Positions 2,538 through 9,409 of a stretch of 9,409 nt of DNA are shown piece by piece (positions within the stretch are counted from its first letter, which is position 1; every line of letters begins with the position of its first letter). Both the position numbers and the translations under genes were made by a program. The notes under the pieces were generated by a model. It saw nothing but the letters and a program-made list of their open reading frames with translations, ran no database searches and had not been told where the DNA came from. The DNA comes from an uncultured Clostridia bacterium (GTDB lineage Bacteria > Bacillota > Clostridia > Christensenellales > QALW01). The DNA lies in the NCBI GenBank assembly GCA_900550765.1, contig URTC01000046.1, positions 1-9,409 of the forward strand, read 5' to 3'.

Positions 2538-4172
2538 TTATTCTATCATATTGGGAATTTCCCGGGAAAGCCTGGGCTCTTCAGAAGCGTTTTTTTTGTT
2601 TTGGTGCATATCCTCATTGCTGCGCCGTATCGTATTTTTGAAAGAAGAATCCTGATCCTCATCAAAGAAGGCATAGCCGCAGGCGATATGCAGGGGAAAG
2701 GGCAGATTTATGGTGGGGATAAACGCCTGGAATTTTTGTATCATTCCGCTTATGCCTACAAGATCGCTGATGATATAAATAAATTCATCTTCAGCGGTAC
2801 GGTAGCAAATGCCCTCGAGGGGGAAGATGGTTCTAATGCCGTGGCAGCAGGCACATAAGGCGAGATCGGCGTTTTCCGGACCATAGGTTTTTCTGATTTC
2901 TTTTAAATGCTCAACTCCAAAGGTAATAACAGCTTGATATTGCGGCTTTTTGCCGTCTTTTTCCAAGCAGGAGAGTAGCTCCGTATAGGCGTCGCGGCTC
3001 CTTACGCCGCAGAGCAGATCGGCAAGAGCAAGTTCCCGGTAGTAGCGAGCCTGTTTGGCTTCGGCCTGTGCGGTACTGTAGCGGTGTACAAAAATACGCA
3101 CAAAAATCACATAGGAAATCACGAGAATGTAGGTGATTAGATAGGGGAAGATCGTTGTTTCACCGTCGAGAAACAGGAGCAGCACATAAAAAGCTGCGGA
3201 GAATCCCAGCAAAAGCAGCGGAAGGAGACAGCTTTTTGCCGCGCGGTTTTTGTGCTTGGCGGTTTCGTGAATGCAGGCGGTCAGAGCATAGATAAAATTC
3301 AACAGCATTAAGAGATAGGTGAACGGCTTCAGATAAAACATATCCAGGGGCGTAAAGAGCTGCCATACCCAGTTCAGCAGGATAGTTCCTGTAAAAATCC
3401 AGGCAAACAGCAAGAATCCTTTTTTGAACCTGCCTTGGCATAAAGAGTAGAGAAAAACATTAAACGGTACCGGCAGGATAAGAAAACTGAAGGCAGAGAT
3501 AAAATAGATGATATAAGGGCTGCTGATAAAAAACTGAAGGCCGCCTTTTACGTTCATGAGCCAAACACCCAGATAAAGCGCCAGCAGTATCAGTGCAAGA
3601 AATCCGCTTTTGTTCAGCCCGGGTAGTTTTCTCAGATATTTTAAATACATTATGGATAGAACAATAGCACAGAAGAGTAAAATAAATGCTGAGATTACGA
3701 TTGGGAGCGTTCGGAAGTAAAGCTGCATCATACAGGCTGAATAACTGCCGCCATAGATGTATAGATGCGGGTTCGGAAGATTTTCTTCATAGTAAGGAAC
3801 GGTTTTAATGCGGATGGCAGCACCTGCATAATCTGCCGGAAGCCGTACGACGTGGTATACTGTGCCTGTTGATTTAATAAATGCGGGTGTGTTCTCTTCA
3901 TATCCGCAGGAATAAATGGATTGGTTATTGACATCTACATCTACTTGCATGTGCGTAGTGGAAAATATCAGAGTTTTATCCTGGATCGTATCGTTTTTAA
4001 AATAGACTACATTAAAACATCCCCGGTCAAATTCGATTTGTGTTGAGGGCATGTGATAGATAGATTCGGTATCCAGATAGACCGAAGAAGCTGCAAACCC
4101 GGCAATTACAATAATCATGGTCAGCAGCAAAACGCCCAGCAGCGGAAGAAATATCAATAAAAGTTTTTTCAT
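2538..4172 (-). CDS. Multi-pass membrane sensor protein with a degenerate GGDEF domain
   Basis: The 544-aa protein has an N-terminal signal or anchor helix (1-27), an extracytoplasmic domain (about 30-152), and about seven membrane helices (155-179, 188-207, 219-245, 252-272, 282-300, 315-335, 342-362). A short linker leads to a cytoplasmic GGDEF-like domain (about 378-528). The layout matches 7TM-type receptors fused to diguanylate cyclases. The GGDEF fold is recognisable from LALADLLCGVRSRDAY, YGPENADLAL and a C-terminal NEDMHQNKK. The signature motif, however, reads TAEDEF (459-464) instead of GGDEF, and the first metal-binding Asp is replaced (ITFGVEHLK). No RxxD inhibitory site is seen. 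It is therefore probably a catalytically dead domain acting as a nucleotide-binding or protein-interaction module. AAGGAG precedes the ATG by 5 bases. Confidence 0.82.
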   Translation of the reverse strand: MKKLLLIFLPLLGVLLLTMIIVIAGFAASSVYLDTESIYHMPSTQIEFDRGCFNVVYFKNDTIQDKTLIFSTTHMQVDVDVNNQSIYSCGYEENTPAFIKSTGTVYHVVRLPADYAGAAIRIKTVPYYEENLPNPHLYIYGGSYSACMMQLYFRTLPIVISAFILLFCAIVLSIMYLKYLRKLPGLNKSGFLALILLALYLGVWLMNVKGGLQFFISSPYIIYFISAFSFLILPVPFNVFLYSLCQGRFKKGFLLFAWIFTGTILLNWVWQLFTPLDMFYLKPFTYLLMLLNFIYALTACIHETAKHKNRAAKSCLLPLLLLGFSAAFYVLLLFLDGETTIFPYLITYILVISYVIFVRIFVHRYSTAQAEAKQARYYRELALADLLCGVRSRDAYTELLSCLEKDGKKPQYQAVITFGVEHLKEIRKTYGPENADLALCACCHGIRTIFPLEGICYRTAEDEFIYIISDLVGISGMIQKFQAFIPTINLPFPLHIACGYAFFDEDQDSSFKNTIRRSNEDMHQNKKNASEEPRLSREIPNMIE

Positions 4173-4373: not shown

Positions 4374-4880
4374 TTAATACTTTAAAAAATCAGTATTGGA
4401 TTCCTGCGGCGTAAAAGAATACCCCTGCTTGCGAAGATACGTGATTTTTATTGCTATAAGGTTGACATCTGAGCCGGTTGCCTGGGCAATTTGAGAGATA
4501 TTGTAATGGTAGGTGTTGATATATTCTAAAATATCTTCGTTTTTCAGCAGCAGGTTCGCGGCGAAAATATTCGCTGCATATTCTGGACGGGAATCCATAT
4601 CATACAGTAAAAATTCCTGTAAGCATCGGTCTTTGGCCAGGGCCCGGTGCAGCTGATCATGGCCGAGCTCATGGGCGCATACGATATTCTTCATTTTGGG
4701 CGTAAGCGCGGGATTCAATATAATGTAGCGATTTCGTTTAATGATCGTATATAGTCCTTTTAAGGTTCCGATATCCATGAATTTTACGTTGATTCCTAAT
4801 TTTTTTGCCATAACAACGGCGTTTGTGGTATTAAATTTTTTTGCTAAAGCGGCCGCTTTTTTTTGAATTTCACAGATCAA
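4374..4880 (-). CDS. ImmA/IrrE-family metallo-endopeptidase
   Basis: This is a cytoplasmic zinc peptidase of family M78, whose members cleave partner XRE repressors to derepress mobile elements or stress genes. The zinc motif HELGH (residues 70-74) and the third ligand in RPEYAANIFAANLLL (E100) are intact. LKGLYTIIKRNRYIILNP, just before it, is typical of the family. I chose the TTG at 4880 (168 aa) because GGGGGAAGG lies just upstream of it. An extended -10 promoter (TGTTATAAT, 4925-4917) also sits inside the longer frame that would start at ATG 4940 (188 aa), and the first 20 residues of that longer form do not look like family sequence. The gene lies 129 bp downstream of the XRE gene in the same direction, the order seen for ImmR-ImmA. 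The repressor at 5010-5408 is its likely substrate. Confidence 0.88.
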   Translation of the reverse strand: MICEIQKKAAALAKKFNTTNAVVMAKKLGINVKFMDIGTLKGLYTIIKRNRYIILNPALTPKMKNIVCAHELGHDQLHRALAKDRCLQEFLLYDMDSRPEYAANIFAANLLLKNEDILEYINTYHYNISQIAQATGSDVNLIAIKITYLRKQGYSFTPQESNTDFLKY

Positions 4881-4916
4881 AGCTTGCCTTCCCCCTTTAT
4901 TCACCAGTATATGGAC

Positions 4917-4925
4917 ATTATAACA
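4917..4925 (-). promoter_or_regulatory. Extended -10 promoter for the ImmA-like gene
   Basis: Read leftward, TG-T-TATAAT (4925-4917) is a perfect extended -10 element. Its -35 region is weak. Transcription would start near 4910, leaving about 30 bases before the TTG start at 4880. It would let the peptidase be made independently of the upstream repressor promoter. Confidence 0.5.
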
Positions 4926-5009
4926 GATGTTGTGTACCATAAATGGGACATAAAAAAATAAATGGTAAAAATTTTTATTAAATTTTAGAAAGTGATATGG
5001 AAGCAGATT

Positions 5010-5408
5010 TCATTTCTTTTTACTGCTGTATTTTTTATTTTTTAATTTTGCATCCCAGTATAGATCATTGATAGCCCGCATTACTTTATCTTTGTCATTT
5101 TCGGTGAGTTCTCCGCCGGCAAAAAGGCCGCCAAGCTGAGAAACGAGCGTTTGGACCTCCCGTTTTGCTTTGGCGCCGCCCCGGATAGCGGCATCGGCGA
5201 TCAATTGTTCCTCATTGGTAAGAAGATAATCGACGGTTACATTGTAAAGATCCGCGATTTTAGCGTACAGGCTGCTTTGTTTGGGATACATTTTGCAAAG
5301 CTCATAGTTTTGATAGGTACGTGTAGAAACACCTATTTGCCGCGCGGCTTGTTCTTGCGTCCATTTTGCCTGCTGCCGCAGCAGTTTTAGTTTTTCTCCG
5401 AATTTCAT
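5010..5408 (-). CDS. XRE/Cro-CI family transcriptional repressor (ImmR-like)
   Basis: The 132-aa protein has an N-terminal lambda-repressor-type helix-turn-helix (residues 4-62: FGEKLKLLRQQAKWTQEQAA, then IGVSTRTYQNYE). The C-terminal part reads GGLFAGGELTENDKDKVM and YWDAKLKNKKY and is basic at the end. This C-terminal layout is one I associate with Firmicute XRE regulators that sit next to ImmA/IrrE peptidases. The ATG at 5408 is preferred over the longer frame reaching 5483 because GAGG lies 8 bases upstream and the extra residues run into the promoter region. It is transcribed from the leftward promoter at 5496-5523. It probably binds the ATACGAA/TTCGTAT half-sites in that region, repressing the rightward promoter and tuning its own. 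Cleavage by the neighbouring peptidase would relieve this; that step is inferred from ImmR/ImmA. Confidence 0.9.
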   Translation of the reverse strand: MKFGEKLKLLRQQAKWTQEQAARQIGVSTRTYQNYELCKMYPKQSSLYAKIADLYNVTVDYLLTNEEQLIADAAIRGGAKAKREVQTLVSQLGGLFAGGELTENDKDKVMRAINDLYWDAKLKNKKYSSKKK

Positions 5409-5438
5409 AAAAACATCCTCTAAAATAAATTTTTGGTA

Positions 5439-5467
5439 TTGACAAGCGGAAGACATTTGCTTATAAT
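5439..5467 (+). promoter_or_regulatory. Rightward consensus promoter facing the XRE promoter
   Basis: A perfect TTGACA (5439-5444) and a perfect TATAAT (5462-5467) have the ideal 17-base spacing. The start would fall near 5474, inside the first operator half-site. It drives the zinc-ribbon gene, with a leader of about 160 bases, and possibly the operon beyond if the terminator at 5870 is read through. Confidence 0.88.
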
Positions 5468-5523: not shown

Positions 5524-5636
5524 CCGTTATCTTGCAGTGAATATCAAGCGGCAGTCAATATGTCGTTTGATTTCCTATCGCGTGCAGGGCAATTGTCAGG
5601 CCGTGGTATTGCTTGAAAGGGGAAAGGAGAAGGAAT

Positions 5637-5822
5637 ATGGATACTATAGTAAAATACAGAGCCAGCTGTCCGATTTGCGGCCATACTCTGTTTAAAGGAA
5701 CGCCCCATTCGCATATTGATGTCAACTGTCCAAAGTGCGGGCAGTTGCTGCAGATCTCTTTTGCAGAGGAAGGGGTAGTCAGCGCGATGGTAACAAAGAG
5801 GCCCGCAGGAGAAGGAAAATAA
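5637..5822 (+). CDS. Small Com-like zinc-ribbon protein
   Basis: This 61-aa protein has two CPxCG knuckles, CPICG (C11, C14) and CPKCG (C31, C34), so it very likely binds one zinc. The spacing and the intervening LFKG...IDVNCPKCG resemble the Com-type zinc fingers of phage Mu relatives, where Com is an RNA-binding activator of mom translation. Whether this protein binds nucleic acid is unknown. The ATG at 5637 is preferred over an in-frame TTG at 5613 because GGAAAGGAGAAGG lies directly before it. It is the first and, given the following terminator, perhaps the only gene of the transcript from the promoter at 5439. It would be the primary target of the XRE/ImmA switch. It could also be a small regulator acting on the operon to its right. 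Confidence 0.75.
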   Translation: MDTIVKYRASCPICGHTLFKGTPHSHIDVNCPKCGQLLQISFAEEGVVSAMVTKRPAGEGK

Positions 5823-5869
5823 AATATCTTGCCGAAGAGAAACGTTGGACTTGTTGAATGATCAAGAGG

Positions 5870-5920
5870 AACCTGGCAGGTAAGCTTTCAGCTTATTTGC
5901 CAGGTTTTATTTTTTTTATT
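5870..5920 (+). terminator. Strong Rho-independent terminator after the zinc-ribbon gene
   Basis: The arms 5870-5885 (AACCTGGCAGGTAAGC) and 5891-5906 (GCTTATTTGCCAGGTT) pair over 16 positions, with two G-U wobbles and a 5-base loop. They are followed by TTATTTTTTTATT. It separates the zinc-ribbon gene from the downstream operon. Confidence 0.92.
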
Positions 5921-5922
5921 TT

Positions 5923-5947
5923 AAACCGGACAGAAATTGACCGGTTT
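5923..5947. promoter_or_regulatory. Inverted repeat, candidate operator of the downstream operon
   Basis: AAACCGGACA (5923-5932) and TGACCGGTTT (5938-5947) are inverted copies with one mismatch and a 5-base spacer. The repeat ends 3 bases before the extended -10 element of the next operon, so a bound protein would block RNA polymerase. The HTH protein encoded 49 bases downstream is the most likely ligand (inference). Confidence 0.6.
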
Positions 5948-5950
5948 ACT

Positions 5951-5995: not shown

Positions 5996-6355
5996 ATGGG
6001 AACGGCACAGCGCAGGCAGCTGCTTTTAAAGGCGCTGCGCCGGCGCAGGCATGATACTATCAGGAACTTAGCGGTGGAATTTGAAGTGTCTGAGCGGACA
6101 ATACGCAGGGATATTGAAATTCTGAGCTTGGACGAGGCGATTTATACGGTTCCGGGACGGTATGCCGGCGGTGTATATATGCTTGACGGCGGATATACCG
6201 CTCACGAACACTTCAGCTTAGCACAGACTGCCGTACTGAAAAAGCTGCTGGGGCAGGTCCGCGGGCGCTGCAGATGTGAGCTGGAGGAACGGGAGATAGA
6301 GGAATTGGAAACGTTGATCAGGCTATATGAACATCCGCAGTTTTCGGGGGCCTAA
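5996..6355 (+). CDS. DeoR/HTH_11-type helix-turn-helix regulator without a sensor domain
   Basis: This 119-aa protein has an N-terminal winged helix-turn-helix (about residues 6-63). The recognition region is LAVEFEVSERTIRRDIEILS (25-44), and the wing ends in GGVYMLDGG. This is the DNA-binding half of DeoR or WYL-type regulators. The usual C-terminal sugar-phosphate or WYL domain is absent, replaced by a short charged helical tail (about 75-112, including LEEREIEELETLIRLYE). The ATG at 5996 is chosen because a near-perfect AAAGGAGGTG lies 8 bases upstream; the open frame extends back to 5858 but crosses a terminator. It is the first gene of the rightward operon, 19 bp before the nucleotidyltransferase gene. 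It probably autoregulates the operon through the inverted repeat at 5923-5947. The effector is unknown. Confidence 0.82.
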   Translation: MGTAQRRQLLLKALRRRRHDTIRNLAVEFEVSERTIRRDIEILSLDEAIYTVPGRYAGGVYMLDGGYTAHEHFSLAQTAVLKKLLGQVRGRCRCELEEREIEELETLIRLYEHPQFSGA

Positions 6356-6374
6356 AAAAGAAAAGGAGATTTTT

Positions 6375-7457
6375 ATGAAAAAAGAGGAAAAAGAATTGTT
6401 TTTTGAACTTTGTCGGTTTCAGGAGGCGGATGGTCAAAAAATACAGCAATATCTGGCTGCGGGGGCGGATACGCCGGCTGTGCTGGGCCATTTGCTTTTT
6501 AACCGCATGGGAGGAATTGCTTACAGCGTACTTTTGAAAAATGAATTGCTGCCCAAGGTAAATCGGGAGTTCCGCAATACTTTAAAAGGCGTGTATATTC
6601 AGAACATTCAAAGGAATAAAAGTTACTTTTCCTGTGTACACAGTTTAGCCCGAACCTTGGAAAAATGCCGCGGCAGCTATGTGATGCTGAAGGGTGCCTA
6701 TTTATGCGGGTATTATCCCAGGGGCTGCAGAACTTCAAATGATATTGATATTCTGGTACATCCAAGCGATCTATACCTTGTAGATGAGGCCCTGCAGAAG
6801 GTCTTGTTCCGGCAGGGCTATATCCGTAACGAGACTTTTGTAAGCGCACAGCGGAAGGATATTATATCTTCCCGTATCATGCGGGGAGAGACTGTTCCGT
6901 TTATTAAGGAAGTGAACCTGCCGCAGATGAAGTTTTTAGAGGTGGATGTAAATTTTTCTTTGGATTATAAAAACGGTCAGGGCGATACGGTAAAAAAGAT
7001 TATTTCCGGCGCATCTGAACGCTGTGCGGCGGGAAAAAGAATTCCTTTGCCCTCGGGAGATGACTTTTTTATTCATCTTTGCGAGCATCTGTATAAGGAG
7101 GCGGCCGCGTACCCGTGGATAGAAATGCGCCGGGATATGAACTTGTATAAGTTTTGTGATATTTATGCGCTGCTTTATGACAGGGATCCTCGGCAAAACG
7201 ACGCGCTGATAGCGAGAGTGCGGGAGCTGGGAACGCAGGAAGCCTGCTGTTATGCCGTATACGCGGTAAAGGAGCTGCTGGGTATCCCGAAAGCGGCAGA
7301 ACAATTGCTGGAGTGCCTGAAGCCGGAAGATACAGCGTTTTTACATGAGGTGATTACGCCGCATGACCGCGGACGGGCGGTATACCTGCAGAAAGATATC
7401 AAAAAGCGATTTTGGACTATTGACCGCCGGACGCTGCTGAAGGAGGAACAACAATGA
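6375..7457 (+). CDS. Nucleotidyltransferase family protein (PF14907 type)
   Basis: This 360-aa protein belongs to the polymerase-beta-like nucleotidyltransferases, which transfer NMP to a hydroxyl or phosphate acceptor. The core reads VMLKGAYLCGYYPRG (103-117), then RTSNDIDILVHP (119-130), with the metal-binding pair D123 and D125 and a likely third carboxylate at D191 (FLEVDVNFSL). Conserved His residues in DDFFIHLCEHLYKEA (229-243) match the helical C-terminal part of the family. PF14907-type enzymes occur in polysaccharide and peptide natural-product clusters, where a partner kinase may supply a phosphorylated acceptor; the acceptor here is unknown. The ATG at 6375 follows AAAAGGAGA at 5 bases and removes 16 residues of the longer open frame. 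Its stop overlaps the start of the kinase gene (ATGA), so the two are translationally coupled. Confidence 0.85.
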   Translation: MKKEEKELFFELCRFQEADGQKIQQYLAAGADTPAVLGHLLFNRMGGIAYSVLLKNELLPKVNREFRNTLKGVYIQNIQRNKSYFSCVHSLARTLEKCRGSYVMLKGAYLCGYYPRGCRTSNDIDILVHPSDLYLVDEALQKVLFRQGYIRNETFVSAQRKDIISSRIMRGETVPFIKEVNLPQMKFLEVDVNFSLDYKNGQGDTVKKIISGASERCAAGKRIPLPSGDDFFIHLCEHLYKEAAAYPWIEMRRDMNLYKFCDIYALLYDRDPRQNDALIARVRELGTQEACCYAVYAVKELLGIPKAAEQLLECLKPEDTAFLHEVITPHDRGRAVYLQKDIKKRFWTIDRRTLLKEEQQ

Positions 7458-8122
7458 AGGTACTGCAAATGAGAAAAAACCTGACAAGAGGATATTTGTT
7501 CACCTTCTGCGGCCTTGACGGCTGTGGGAAAACGACGATGATTCAGCGGCTGGAGGCTTGGCTGAAGCAGCAGGGAAAGCCGGTGCTGCTTACACGCCAG
7601 CCTACGGATGCAGTGAGAAATTCTGCAATTTTTCGGACGTATATGGATCAGCCCGATCATAGAAGATATGATTACCGCAGTCTTTCCATGCTGGCGGCGG
7701 CGGACCGTATCCAGCATGTCAATAAGGAGATCTATCCGGCTATGCAGGAGGGAAAAATTGTTTTGAGCGATCGGTATTTTTATTCGTGCCTGGCAAATTT
7801 ATTGGGCAGGGGGTATGAACGGGACCGGTGGATTTATGAGGCAGCCTCGTTTGTTCTGCAGCCGGATGCGGCGTTCTTTCTGGATATTTCCGTGGAAGAA
7901 GCCATTGCGCGGGTACGGCAGCGGGCAGAGGAAAAGGAAAGATATATCCATGAGAGCCTGCAATATAGGCTGCGGGATTTTTATATAGAGATCGCCCGGA
8001 AGAATAAAGGGATTCTTCTTTCTACTGCGGAGGATGAGGAAAGAACGTTTGAAACAATTAAAAAAACAGTACAGAAATGCTTGGAGGAAAATAGAAATGG
8101 ATATCAAAAAAGGCGTTTATGA
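7454..8122 (+). CDS. Thymidylate-kinase-like P-loop kinase
   Basis: The 222-aa protein resembles dTMP kinase. It has a P-loop GLDGCGKTT (20-28), the base-binding region LAAADRIQH (80-88), a DRY motif in VLSDRYFYS (D106-R107-Y108) and an Arg-rich lid (RVRQRAEEKERY, 153-164). The segment that is normally REPGGT in housekeeping Tmk reads RQPTDA (49-54). That change, and its place inside an accessory operon, argue for a specialised substrate rather than routine dTTP synthesis. It could phosphorylate a nucleoside monophosphate or a small molecule used by the neighbouring nucleotidyltransferase (inference). The ATG overlaps the upstream TGA and has AAGGAGG 7 bases before it. Its 3' end overlaps the carrier-protein gene by 26 bases. 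Confidence 0.85.
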   Translation: MKVLQMRKNLTRGYLFTFCGLDGCGKTTMIQRLEAWLKQQGKPVLLTRQPTDAVRNSAIFRTYMDQPDHRRYDYRSLSMLAAADRIQHVNKEIYPAMQEGKIVLSDRYFYSCLANLLGRGYERDRWIYEAASFVLQPDAAFFLDISVEEAIARVRQRAEEKERYIHESLQYRLRDFYIEIARKNKGILLSTAEDEERTFETIKKTVQKCLEENRNGYQKRRL

Positions 8123-8339
8123 CGTTATCGGAGAGATCAGCGGAAATGCCGTTAAGAAGAAAACACAGCGGCTGGACAGTGATCTGGGCTTTGATAGTTT
8201 AAAGATGGTGCTGCTGCTTATTTTATTGGAGGAAAAATTTGTGATGGAGCTGAATGAGAGCGATATGAATCCGTTTGCCTTAGAAACCGTAGCAGATGTA
8301 ATGGCCTTGGTATGCCGGTATAAAGGAGAAAAAGTATGA
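8097..8339 (+). CDS. Acyl/peptidyl carrier protein
   Basis: This 80-aa protein has the classic phosphopantetheine site DSDLGFDSLKMVLLLILLEE (27-46). S34 is the serine that would be modified by a 4'-phosphopantetheinyl transferase, and no transferase gene is visible in the window. The length and acidic helical pattern are those of a free-standing ACP/PCP. It differs from fatty-acid AcpP, which usually has DSLDTVELVM. The site therefore looks like that of a dedicated carrier in secondary metabolism. The ATG at 8097 is preferred because GGAGG lies 9 bases upstream; an in-frame ATG at 8034 would add 21 residues encoded inside the kinase gene. Its TGA overlaps the ATG of the BtrH-like gene, which implies paired synthesis. 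It would carry an acyl or aminoacyl group as a thioester for the next protein. Confidence 0.9.
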   Translation: MDIKKGVYDVIGEISGNAVKKKTQRLDSDLGFDSLKMVLLLILLEEKFVMELNESDMNPFALETVADVMALVCRYKGEKV

Positions 8340-9370
8340 AAAAGAAAATATCCCTGCCGCTGGGATACAGTATTTACCAAACATATCACTGTCAGGGGAG
8401 CACTGCGGCAGTAACGGTCAAAAATCCGTCGGTACGCAACTGGATTCTGTGTCATTGTTTAATGCTGCAATGTACCCGGAAATTTCTTTCGGGATACACT
8501 ACGCCGCAGGTACATATCAGAAATTCAAAAATCAATGAAAACCCGTATATAGAAAGACGGAACTTCAGTGTACAGTTTTTGATGAATTGCCTTACAAAGG
8601 CTATAAAAAATTTGCTTAACGAAGGATACTATGTGCACTTTTATGGTGCGGATGATTATTATCTGGAGGGAAAAAGTTGGTACCGGCAGCGGCATTTTGT
8701 GCATGACGGATTGATCTGCGGTTATGATGAAAACGATAAGACTTATGAAATCTTTGCTTATGATGCAAATTGGGTGTATACGCGGTTCCGGGTAAAGCAG
8801 AGCTCTGTAGTAAAGGCGATTCATAGGGCAGCGGCAGATACGGGGGAATATGGCGGTTTAATTGGGATCAGGGCTTCTAAATGGCCGGCATACTTTCATG
8901 TGTCTGATGCCGTGGCTTTGCTGAAAGAGTATGGCAACGCCTATTTGCAGAAATATCCTCCGGAAGGAGAGGGCTTGGTTGAAGGAATTGCAGTACAGGA
9001 ATATCTGAAATGGTATCTTGAAAGAATCCGGGATGGGCAGATTCCCTATGAAAGGATCGATAAAAGAATTTTTCGGTTGTTGTGGGAACATAAAAAATGC
9101 GTGTTGGAATGTTTGCGGAATATTGAACAGACTTTGGGGATGGGCTGCATCCCGCGGGAGAATGTGCTGCCGAGCGCGGCGTATGGGGAAATTGTGCAGC
9201 AGGCGGACCTGATCCGTATGATATATGCAAGATACAGTATAAAGCGTGAGGATAAACTGCTGGATTTTATAAACGGCAAATTGATGTATTTGAAGGATCG
9301 GGAACAGAGTATTTTAAGCAGCGCGGTGCAGCAGGCGGAAAGTATTTTAAGAATGAAGGAGGAAAAATAA
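8336..9370 (+). CDS. BtrH-like protein (C39-peptidase-like fold), putative acyltransferase
   Basis: The 344-aa protein resembles the family named for the N-terminal domain of butirosin protein BtrH. BtrH transfers an acyl group from carrier protein BtrI to an amine. Matching features are a Cys-containing N-terminal segment (YHCQGS, C19), the pattern NWILCHCLMLQC (35-46), and the core RHFVHDGLICGYDENDKTYE (119-138) followed by IFAYDANW (139-146). C19 (or C39/C41), H123 and D143 are candidate catalytic residues; I cannot verify the triad. The C-terminal half (about 185-344) is charged and helical with no motif I recognise. AAAGGAG lies 6 bases before the ATG, which overlaps the stop of the carrier gene. 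That pairing supports ACP-dependent acyl transfer or amide formation. A proteolytic role is the main alternative. Family call moderate, reaction inferred. Confidence 0.7.
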   Translation: MKKKISLPLGYSIYQTYHCQGSTAAVTVKNPSVRNWILCHCLMLQCTRKFLSGYTTPQVHIRNSKINENPYIERRNFSVQFLMNCLTKAIKNLLNEGYYVHFYGADDYYLEGKSWYRQRHFVHDGLICGYDENDKTYEIFAYDANWVYTRFRVKQSSVVKAIHRAAADTGEYGGLIGIRASKWPAYFHVSDAVALLKEYGNAYLQKYPPEGEGLVEGIAVQEYLKWYLERIRDGQIPYERIDKRIFRLLWEHKKCVLECLRNIEQTLGMGCIPRENVLPSAAYGEIVQQADLIRMIYARYSIKREDKLLDFINGKLMYLKDREQSILSSAVQQAESILRMKEEK

Positions 9371-9371
9371 G

Positions 9372-9409
9372 ATGCTTTGGGAAAAAATCAAGGAAAAGAT
9401 GATGAAAAA
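9372..9409 (+). CDS. Start of a further operon gene (partial, function unknown)
   Basis: An ATG at 9372, one base after the previous stop codon, is preceded by AAGGAGG (9357-9363) at 8 bases. The reading frame continues to the right edge as MLWEKIKEKMMK. The spacing and strong ribosome binding site show that the operon continues. Twelve residues are too few to assign a family. An acid- or amino-acid-activating ligase that loads the carrier protein would fit the context and the opening residues, but this is a guess. Confidence 0.6.
   Translation, partial: MLWEKIKEKMMK

Follow-up and report, generated by a model that had tools for sequence, protein, structure and literature searches.

A carrier-protein operon at the right end of the window

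We analysed a stretch of 9,409 nucleotides from an uncultured Clostridia bacterium (assembly GCA_900550765.1, contig URTC01000046.1; hereafter the window), whose right end carries an operon that combines a dedicated acyl carrier protein (ACP) with a BtrH-like protein. All six genes lie on the forward strand. The first (5996..6355) encodes a helix-turn-helix (HTH) regulator of the DeoR/HTH_11 type, with PF08279 and PF08220 above their cut-offs (HTH_11 37.1 bits, cut-off 25), and after a gap of 19 bp it is followed by a PF14907 nucleotidyltransferase (NTase; 6375..7457; 109.7 bits, cut-off 31.2). A TMP-kinase-like phosphotransferase with an altered pocket (7454..8122; PF02223 and TIGR00041 above cut-off; Thymidylate_kin 109.0 bits, cut-off 27) overlaps the NTase gene by 4 bp. 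The ACP gene (8097..8339; PF00550; PP-binding 26.2 bits, cut-off 20.8) in turn overlaps the kinase gene by 26 bp, and Ser34 of its DSL motif corresponds to codon 8196-8198. The BtrH-like gene (8336..9370), for whose product a CcbD/CtaG fold is predicted from a structural model and conservation, overlaps the ACP gene by 4 bp and has Cys19 at codon 8390-8392. One base pair further on, the ATG at 9372 opens an acyl-AMP ligase gene that is cut by the window edge (9372..9409), and its fragment MLWEKIKEKMMK looks like the beginning of the AMP-binding ligases, the family that stands next in the operons of relatives. The first-pass annotation had described six tightly packed genes acting as one unit and running off the right edge; the open reading frames (ORFs) and the DNA bear out all five spacings and the truncated sixth gene, and the co-linear order supports a single unit.

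Recurrence of the operon genes in related genomes

With the BtrH-like alignment, species-representative genomes were searched and gave 31 loci. The genomes that hold them are metagenome-assembled and bear either Candidatus names or the titles Clostridia, Eubacteriales, Oscillospiraceae or Ruminococcaceae; colon, rectum or cecum is named in eight of the 31 locus titles. The usual order is HTH, NTase, TMP-kinase-like, ACP, BtrH-like and ligase, often with a CYTH gene next, so the adenylating ligase that the first-pass annotation had suggested looking for to the right is found directly beyond the edge position in relatives. Downstream of the ligase or CYTH gene come either F7, a protein family of ~376 aa, or a PF08924 Rv2525c-like glycoside-hydrolase-like protein, and then giant Rhs/Big_2 proteins.

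Since these 31 loci had been picked by their BtrH-like gene, they could not test the linkage of that gene. The linkage test was therefore made on two kinase-based samples, a class-level one (391 genomes) and an order-level one (345 genomes), whose search centres and several drawn genomes were operon genomes already found by the BtrH-like search. In the class-level search, operon-type kinases scored E <=2.3e-85 and the other matches 1.6e-30 at best. The operon-type kinase was present in 4/391 class-level and 12/345 order-level genomes, at 20 places in total (4 + 16). The NTase adjoined 19 of these 20 kinases, ACP and ligase were near 18, and the BtrH-like family was near 12, with BtrH_N-type proteins at two more places (above the Pfam cut-off in L069, slightly below it in L131). 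A second tally, of 39 non-redundant kinase loci and counting those with enough flank, gave NTase at 35/37, ACP at 34/39, BtrH-like at 29/38, ligase at 32/37, CYTH at 19/35, F7 at 15/32 and HTH at 23/36. Because NTase, ACP, ligase and BtrH-like genes recur around the 20 kinase places, the arrangement is not a matter of chance, and the kinase and NTase do co-occur with ACP and BtrH-like genes in other genomes, an outcome on which the first-pass annotation had staked its proposal.

Three other origins or roles were set aside. As to phages, no BtrH-like relative occurs in 50,697 phage records, none of 17 candidate stretches in IMG/VR was confirmed (0/17), and the kinase-like protein gave 0/29 there. 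A plasmid origin was rejected on a single distant BtrH-like match in 72,556 records, and a defence system on PADLOC matches that were generic, the best being PDC-M51B (43 bits, to the kinase).

The BtrH-like protein

The BtrH-like protein of the window has no Pfam or NCBIfam match and stays below the curated cut-off of PF14399 (BtrH_N), and its alignment found no match among PDB sequences. Its model (pLDDT 87.5), however, matched CcbD, CtaG and AziU3 far above all else, over nearly the whole length and at ~10% sequence identity, and it has the papain-like fold and C-terminal helical part of the BtrH/CcbD/CtaG class. We thus predict from the model that the protein shares the fold of the carrier-dependent condensing enzymes CcbD and CtaG. 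When its profile was compared with that of four BtrH_N-type proteins from clostridia (E 3.5e-5, at a probability of just 72), Cys19 of the window protein fell on a Cys that is invariant in them, and H120/H123 on likewise invariant histidines; the nucleophile positions in this fold are C11 in CtaG and C19 in CcbD according to PDB titles. Conservation was read from 157 aligned rows, 153 of them distinct (120 of 219 database hits plus the locus copies): H120 and H123 are each kept in 157/157, D143 in 153/157 and C46 in 156/157. As judged from this alignment, H120/H123 with D143 provide a conserved His and its acidic partner. The pairing of ACP and BtrH-like protein proposed in the first-pass annotation is supported as regards the ACP and the predicted BtrH-type fold.

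Partner enzymes

The assignment of the second gene to the PF14907-type nucleotidyltransferases is upheld by its score and by its carboxylates, with D123 kept in 14/15 and D125, E189 and D191 in 15/15 aligned proteins; D123, D125 and D191 are presumably the catalytic ones. Against PDB sequences, the NTase alignment gave just one weak match (E 0.47).

For the kinase, a PF02223 search of 16 operon genomes found another above-cut-off PF02223 protein besides the operon type in 14, and the 11 of these 14 that were fetched (three left out) were compared with the 20 operon-type kinases. The P-loop lysine K26 and the DR/DRY arginines R85 and R107 are kept in 20/20 operon-type kinases. Four residues before the DR arginine, Ala or Cys stands in 20/20 operon-type kinases, whereas Phe or Tyr stands in 11/11 of the others; in dTMP kinase this aromatic residue stacks on the thymine base. 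The P-loop carries Cys in the operon type against Glu or Asp in the 11 others, and the SCLANL stretch is three residues longer than in those 11. On its pocket residues an ordinary TMP kinase is therefore unlikely, although the dTMP-kinase cut-off is passed and the phosphate machinery is kept.

A kinase-NTase pair could also belong to a pathway resembling those of ribosomally synthesized and post-translationally modified peptides (RiPPs), in which a short precursor would be phosphorylated or nucleotidylated by the pair and acylated by the BtrH-like protein. There is a parallel in pseudomycoidin: the C-terminal Ser of this lasso peptide is the target of a phosphorylating kinase, and the presence of hexoses on it depends on an annotated nucleotidyltransferase (PMC9266682). 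Radical SAM peptide-maturase-like genes also occur close to one variant operon (L072) and, in the L073 genome, close to a BtrH_N-type gene, but they are part of neighbouring gene sets, outside the core. We noticed no short precursor conserved across the inspected operons, among which no systematic small-ORF search was made, and we consider this pathway improbable.

By its matches, which include NRPS domains, the ligase stands closest to MenE and to acyl/aryl-CoA ligases. In the printed alignment it has PLYH where NRPS domains show FD, and the His is invariant (14/14). The Asp of FDxS in NRPS adenylation domains binds the substrate amine. Since the ligase looks to be of the acyl/aryl-CoA-ligase type with PLYH replacing FD, aminoacylation, one of the chemistries envisaged in the first-pass annotation, is the less likely one. 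NRPS synthesis was rejected on the ligase type and because no condensation domain was present among the operon genes scanned. The phosphopantetheine Ser of the ACP is found in 13/13 aligned proteins.

A shared palindrome and a candidate exoprotein/lysis regulon

A 27-bp palindrome, TAAACCGGACA-N5-TGACCGGTTTA, lies at 5922..5948, 47 bp before the HTH start, and is a predicted operator. Its counterparts end 30-39 bp before the HTH ORF in L011, L013, L021, L024, L028 and L126. A first scan of the fetched loci found 19 sites in 816,629 bases, compared with 0.4 in block shuffles. For later scans we used a fixed 27-bp pattern with <=2 mismatches and the reversed pattern as control. This gave 41 sites in 13 of the 24 operon genomes, with none for the control. 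In the class sample the palindrome occurs in 6/391 genomes, and the control matches one. Two of the six are operon genomes, with 12 sites between them, and the remaining four hold 5 sites; the sample's other two operon genomes have none. Matches in genomes without the operon-type kinase are at G214:C10:27964, G253:C56:8211, G043:C3:46781 and G400:C1:2356654.

With gene families defined beforehand, a system gene starts -100 to 300 bp from the palindrome at 41 of 48 distinct sites in the fetched loci. Among sites independent of the pattern derivation the figure is 24/30, compared with 2,992/20,000 (15%) random positions in the same loci; 20 of the 30 lie in loci fetched for holding a site (18/20 with a system gene) and 10 in first-scan loci (6/10). 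The genes at these 30 sites are PF08924-like (8), HTH (4), holin-associated (4), phosphoesterase (3), giant-type (3), NTase (1) and F7 (1), with none at 6. Cell-wall hydrolases (amidase) and holins stand behind the same palindrome as leaderless exoproteins. Since one palindrome stands before the operon and before genes of the F7, giant, glycoside-hydrolase-like and holin-associated kinds, membership of the operon in an exoprotein/lysis regulon is likely, and the palindrome would be the operator bound by the HTH regulator of the operon.

F7 was found in 16/24 operon genomes at E 1e-5 and in 15/24 at 1e-20; in the class sample, at 1e-20, it occurs in 2/4 operon genomes versus 1/387 others. Of 24 F7 places, 15 are <=10 kb from an operon-type kinase. 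The length of F7 is near-constant at 376 aa. Among 8,000 candidates scored, 789 relatives were obtained at E 0.001; none of the 120 listed has a Pfam domain, and the F7 alignment matched no PDB sequence. For 20 large proteins listed as encoded <=3 kb downstream, a simple hydropathy test found no hydrophobic N-terminus in 16, one of these 16 (L019, 454 aa) resembling a housekeeping protein. A scan of six Rhs giants showed a pretoxin Hint domain in two, accompanied in one of them by Tox-REase-7. Hol44 holins of 16 operon genomes, whose contigs are fragmented, lie within 10 kb of the operon in 2/9 cases and within 15 kb in 3/9.

An exoprotein leader motif, [EDN][ED][ILV]xL, was set aside as circular, having been chosen after the sequences were seen; in this post hoc form it occurs within the first 70 residues of 9/30 exoproteins versus 10/516 controls (shuffle mean 0.64), for example at L022:14251, L123:4717 and L124:7055. 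By eye, a similar N-terminal stretch, QYxNxIxxTL...DSL...NxG, was seen in proteins at L159:5582-7144, L164:502-1830, L167:4653-6116 and L168:2108-2974. These differ in length; one has an LCAT-like lipase domain, and the other one scanned has no Pfam hit. The stretch is possibly a trafficking domain of leaderless effectors.

At L140:9262-12880, where the fetched stretch has neither NTase nor kinase, an ACP (PF00550, 37.4 bits) and two proteins that match no Pfam family come before F7 and an Rhs giant; this ACP is perhaps an independent carrier-protein partner of F7. The 369-aa protein of L140 was ruled out as a BtrH-like relative by profile comparison.

The wall hydrolases behind the palindrome, together with the ligase and carrier pair, could also suggest that the pathway decorates a cell-envelope polymer or shields the producer from its own hydrolases, as DltA/DltC, a ligase and carrier pair, acts on teichoic acid. 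However, no membrane acyltransferase is among the recurrent operon genes, and we rate this as very improbable.

Proposed function of the operon

The best-supported part of our interpretation, as far as sequences can tell, would be that an exoprotein/lysis gene set contains a dedicated acyl-ACP pathway and that this pathway has an enzyme of the condensing type. We infer that the likely role of the operon is to acylate exoproteins or a co-released molecule. Our best explanation, offered tentatively, is a dedicated carrier-protein pathway with leaderless exoproteins as the predicted acceptor. The ligase would load a carboxylic acid, likely one without an alpha-amine, onto the ACP, and the BtrH-like protein with its CcbD/CtaG fold would move the acyl group from the ACP to an amine. 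The acceptors would be F7, Rhs and Big_2 giants, whose genes share the palindrome in relatives. The NTase, the kinase-like enzyme and the CYTH protein may serve in making, activating or trimming a part of the acceptor that carries a phosphate or a nucleotide, and the holin and cell-wall hydrolases may help the modified exoproteins leave the cell.

A quite possible alternative is a diffusible acylated small molecule, such as an acyl-amide whose amine part is phosphorylated or nucleotidylated, which ABC transporters would export in some species and which in others would be released with the lysis proteins, with no protein modified. CtaG and BtrH act on small amines. CcbD likewise acts on a small amine and not on a protein (PMC12945683). 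ABC exporters, a kind of gene that the first-pass annotation had suggested looking for, lie beside variant operons: L070 and L072 each have an ABC pair directly upstream of the NTase, L131 has one ABC gene in that position and another further downstream, and there is an ABC pair with ACP and ligase upstream in L069. A BtrH-like relative moreover adjoins NRPS genes in Paenibacillus sp. 37. The small molecule is disfavoured by the genomic tie to F7, a protein of near-constant length, by the palindrome common to operon and exoprotein genes, and by the lack of an exporter within main-class operons. Because exoprotein genes, rather than exporters, are what the operon is tied to in the main class, we slightly prefer exoproteins over a free molecule as acceptor.

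Besides the small-amine substrates of CcbD, BtrH and CtaG, several findings weigh against the exoprotein acceptor and the pathway proposed for it. The nucleophile Cys is kept in just 9/157 BtrH-like rows, the window copy among them, and any Cys near the site in 30/157, which may mean a different catalysis or its loss. The fold is supported by the model, and a classical cysteine mechanism is possible. The kinase-like protein passes the NCBIfam dTMP-kinase cut-off TIGR00041 (104.3 vs 83.25 bits). At 6/20 kinase-found places (L071, L123, L124, L125, L127, L129) no BtrH-like protein was identified. The variant operons L070, L072 and L131 lie beside ABC exporters, as small-molecule clusters do, and have no F7 in the fetched locus, and L069 holds just a distant, lipoprotein-like F7 relative. 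No palindrome with <=2 mismatches was found in 11/24 operon genomes, two of which, G007 and G233, belong to the class sample. On the fragmented contigs of the 16 operon genomes, Rhs proteins mostly lie elsewhere (2/18 within 10 kb of the operon, 5/18 within 15 kb). Finally, the genes to the right of the window edge are known from relatives alone.

A fuller scheme, "decorate, then lyse", we put forward as doubtful: one HTH regulator and one 27-bp operator would switch on the acylation pathway, the leaderless exoproteins and the holin and wall hydrolases together. The exoproteins would be polymorphic, some being Rhs proteins with a pretoxin Hint domain, and the retooled TMP kinase and the NTase would make the attached group. 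If true, this would be the first carrier-protein-driven exoprotein modification system in Gram-positive bacteria. In any case, an unassigned carrier-protein pathway of Clostridia is tied to a candidate exoprotein/lysis regulon, which makes both testable, with F7 as the first candidate acceptor. If exoproteins are acylated, Gram-positive bacteria and a new enzyme fold would be added to what is known of carrier-based protein acylation.

Neighbouring genes

Upstream of the operon, a small zinc-ribbon protein of the ZNR family is encoded at 5613..5822 on the forward strand (best Zn-ribbon match 27.6 bits, slightly below its cut-off), and this family also precedes the operon in several relatives' loci. 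A terminator-like hairpin with a 19-pair stem and a T run (5868..5908, forward strand) separates it from the operon. On the reverse strand lie an XRE-type repressor gene (5010..5411; HTH_19/HTH_3) and, adjoining it, a divergent gene for an ImmA/IrrE-type metallopeptidase (Peptidase_M78; 4374..4940; PF06114, 60.7 bits). The latter recurs in relatives, M78 and HTH3 genes standing upstream of the operon in L003, L005 and L012 and upstream of F7 in L137. The XRE/zinc-ribbon intergenic region has two 12/12 sigma-70-type promoter matches back to back, at 5439-5467 (forward) and 5523-5496 (reverse). A GGDEF-domain protein (2538-4172) and a pentapeptide-repeat protein (1937-2524), both on the reverse strand, showed no link to the operon.

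Two observations concern relatives. At L072:10883-16000, beside the variant operon, genes for an ACP-like protein and ABC transporters come after a radical SAM/SPASM peptide-maturase-like gene. In L032 (plasmid pART37 of Paenibacillus sp. 37, the sole named, non-metagenome carrier of a BtrH-like relative met), the relative lies beside NRPS genes, an Ig-like protein and tail-fibre-named proteins.

Comparison with known systems

No description of this gene combination was found in the open-licence literature, in line with the view of the first-pass annotation that the arrangement was not a known one. The closest systems are CcbD/LmbD (lincosamides), CtaG (closthioamide), AziU3 (azinomycin) and BtrH (butirosin). 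The operon resembles the CcbD/CtaG/BtrH-type systems in having a carrier protein in the same operon, a conserved His and Asp and the predicted fold (CcbD, CtaG, AziU3), and it resembles clostridial BtrH_N-type proteins in that Cys19 of the window aligns with the Cys invariant in four of them. It differs from those systems in a sequence identity of only ~10%, in a nucleophile that is not conserved in the BtrH-like family, in its NTase, TMP-kinase-like and CYTH partners, and in having no NRPS condensation genes in the operon.

Acylation of secreted proteins has precedents in Gram-negative bacteria (PMC5279801, PMC8510554). In IacP/SipB and CdiC/CdiA, a dedicated ACP (IacP) or an RTX-activating-type acyltransferase (CdiC) is likewise genetically tied to secreted proteins, but the acyltransferases are of other types, and protein acylation is here a prediction. 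We know of no ligase, NTase or kinase partner for either pair. The PsmK/PsmN pair of lasso peptides is similar in using a kinase and an annotated nucleotidyltransferase as a tailoring pair; PsmK is from another kinase family, and no lasso synthetase or precursor was seen among the genes examined here. Type 10 secretion is a holin/endolysin-dependent release of exoproteins. In contrast to it, the set described here includes a carrier-protein operon and its genes are linked by the shared site alone; in common with it, holins, an amidase and leaderless exoproteins are found together, here behind one palindrome.

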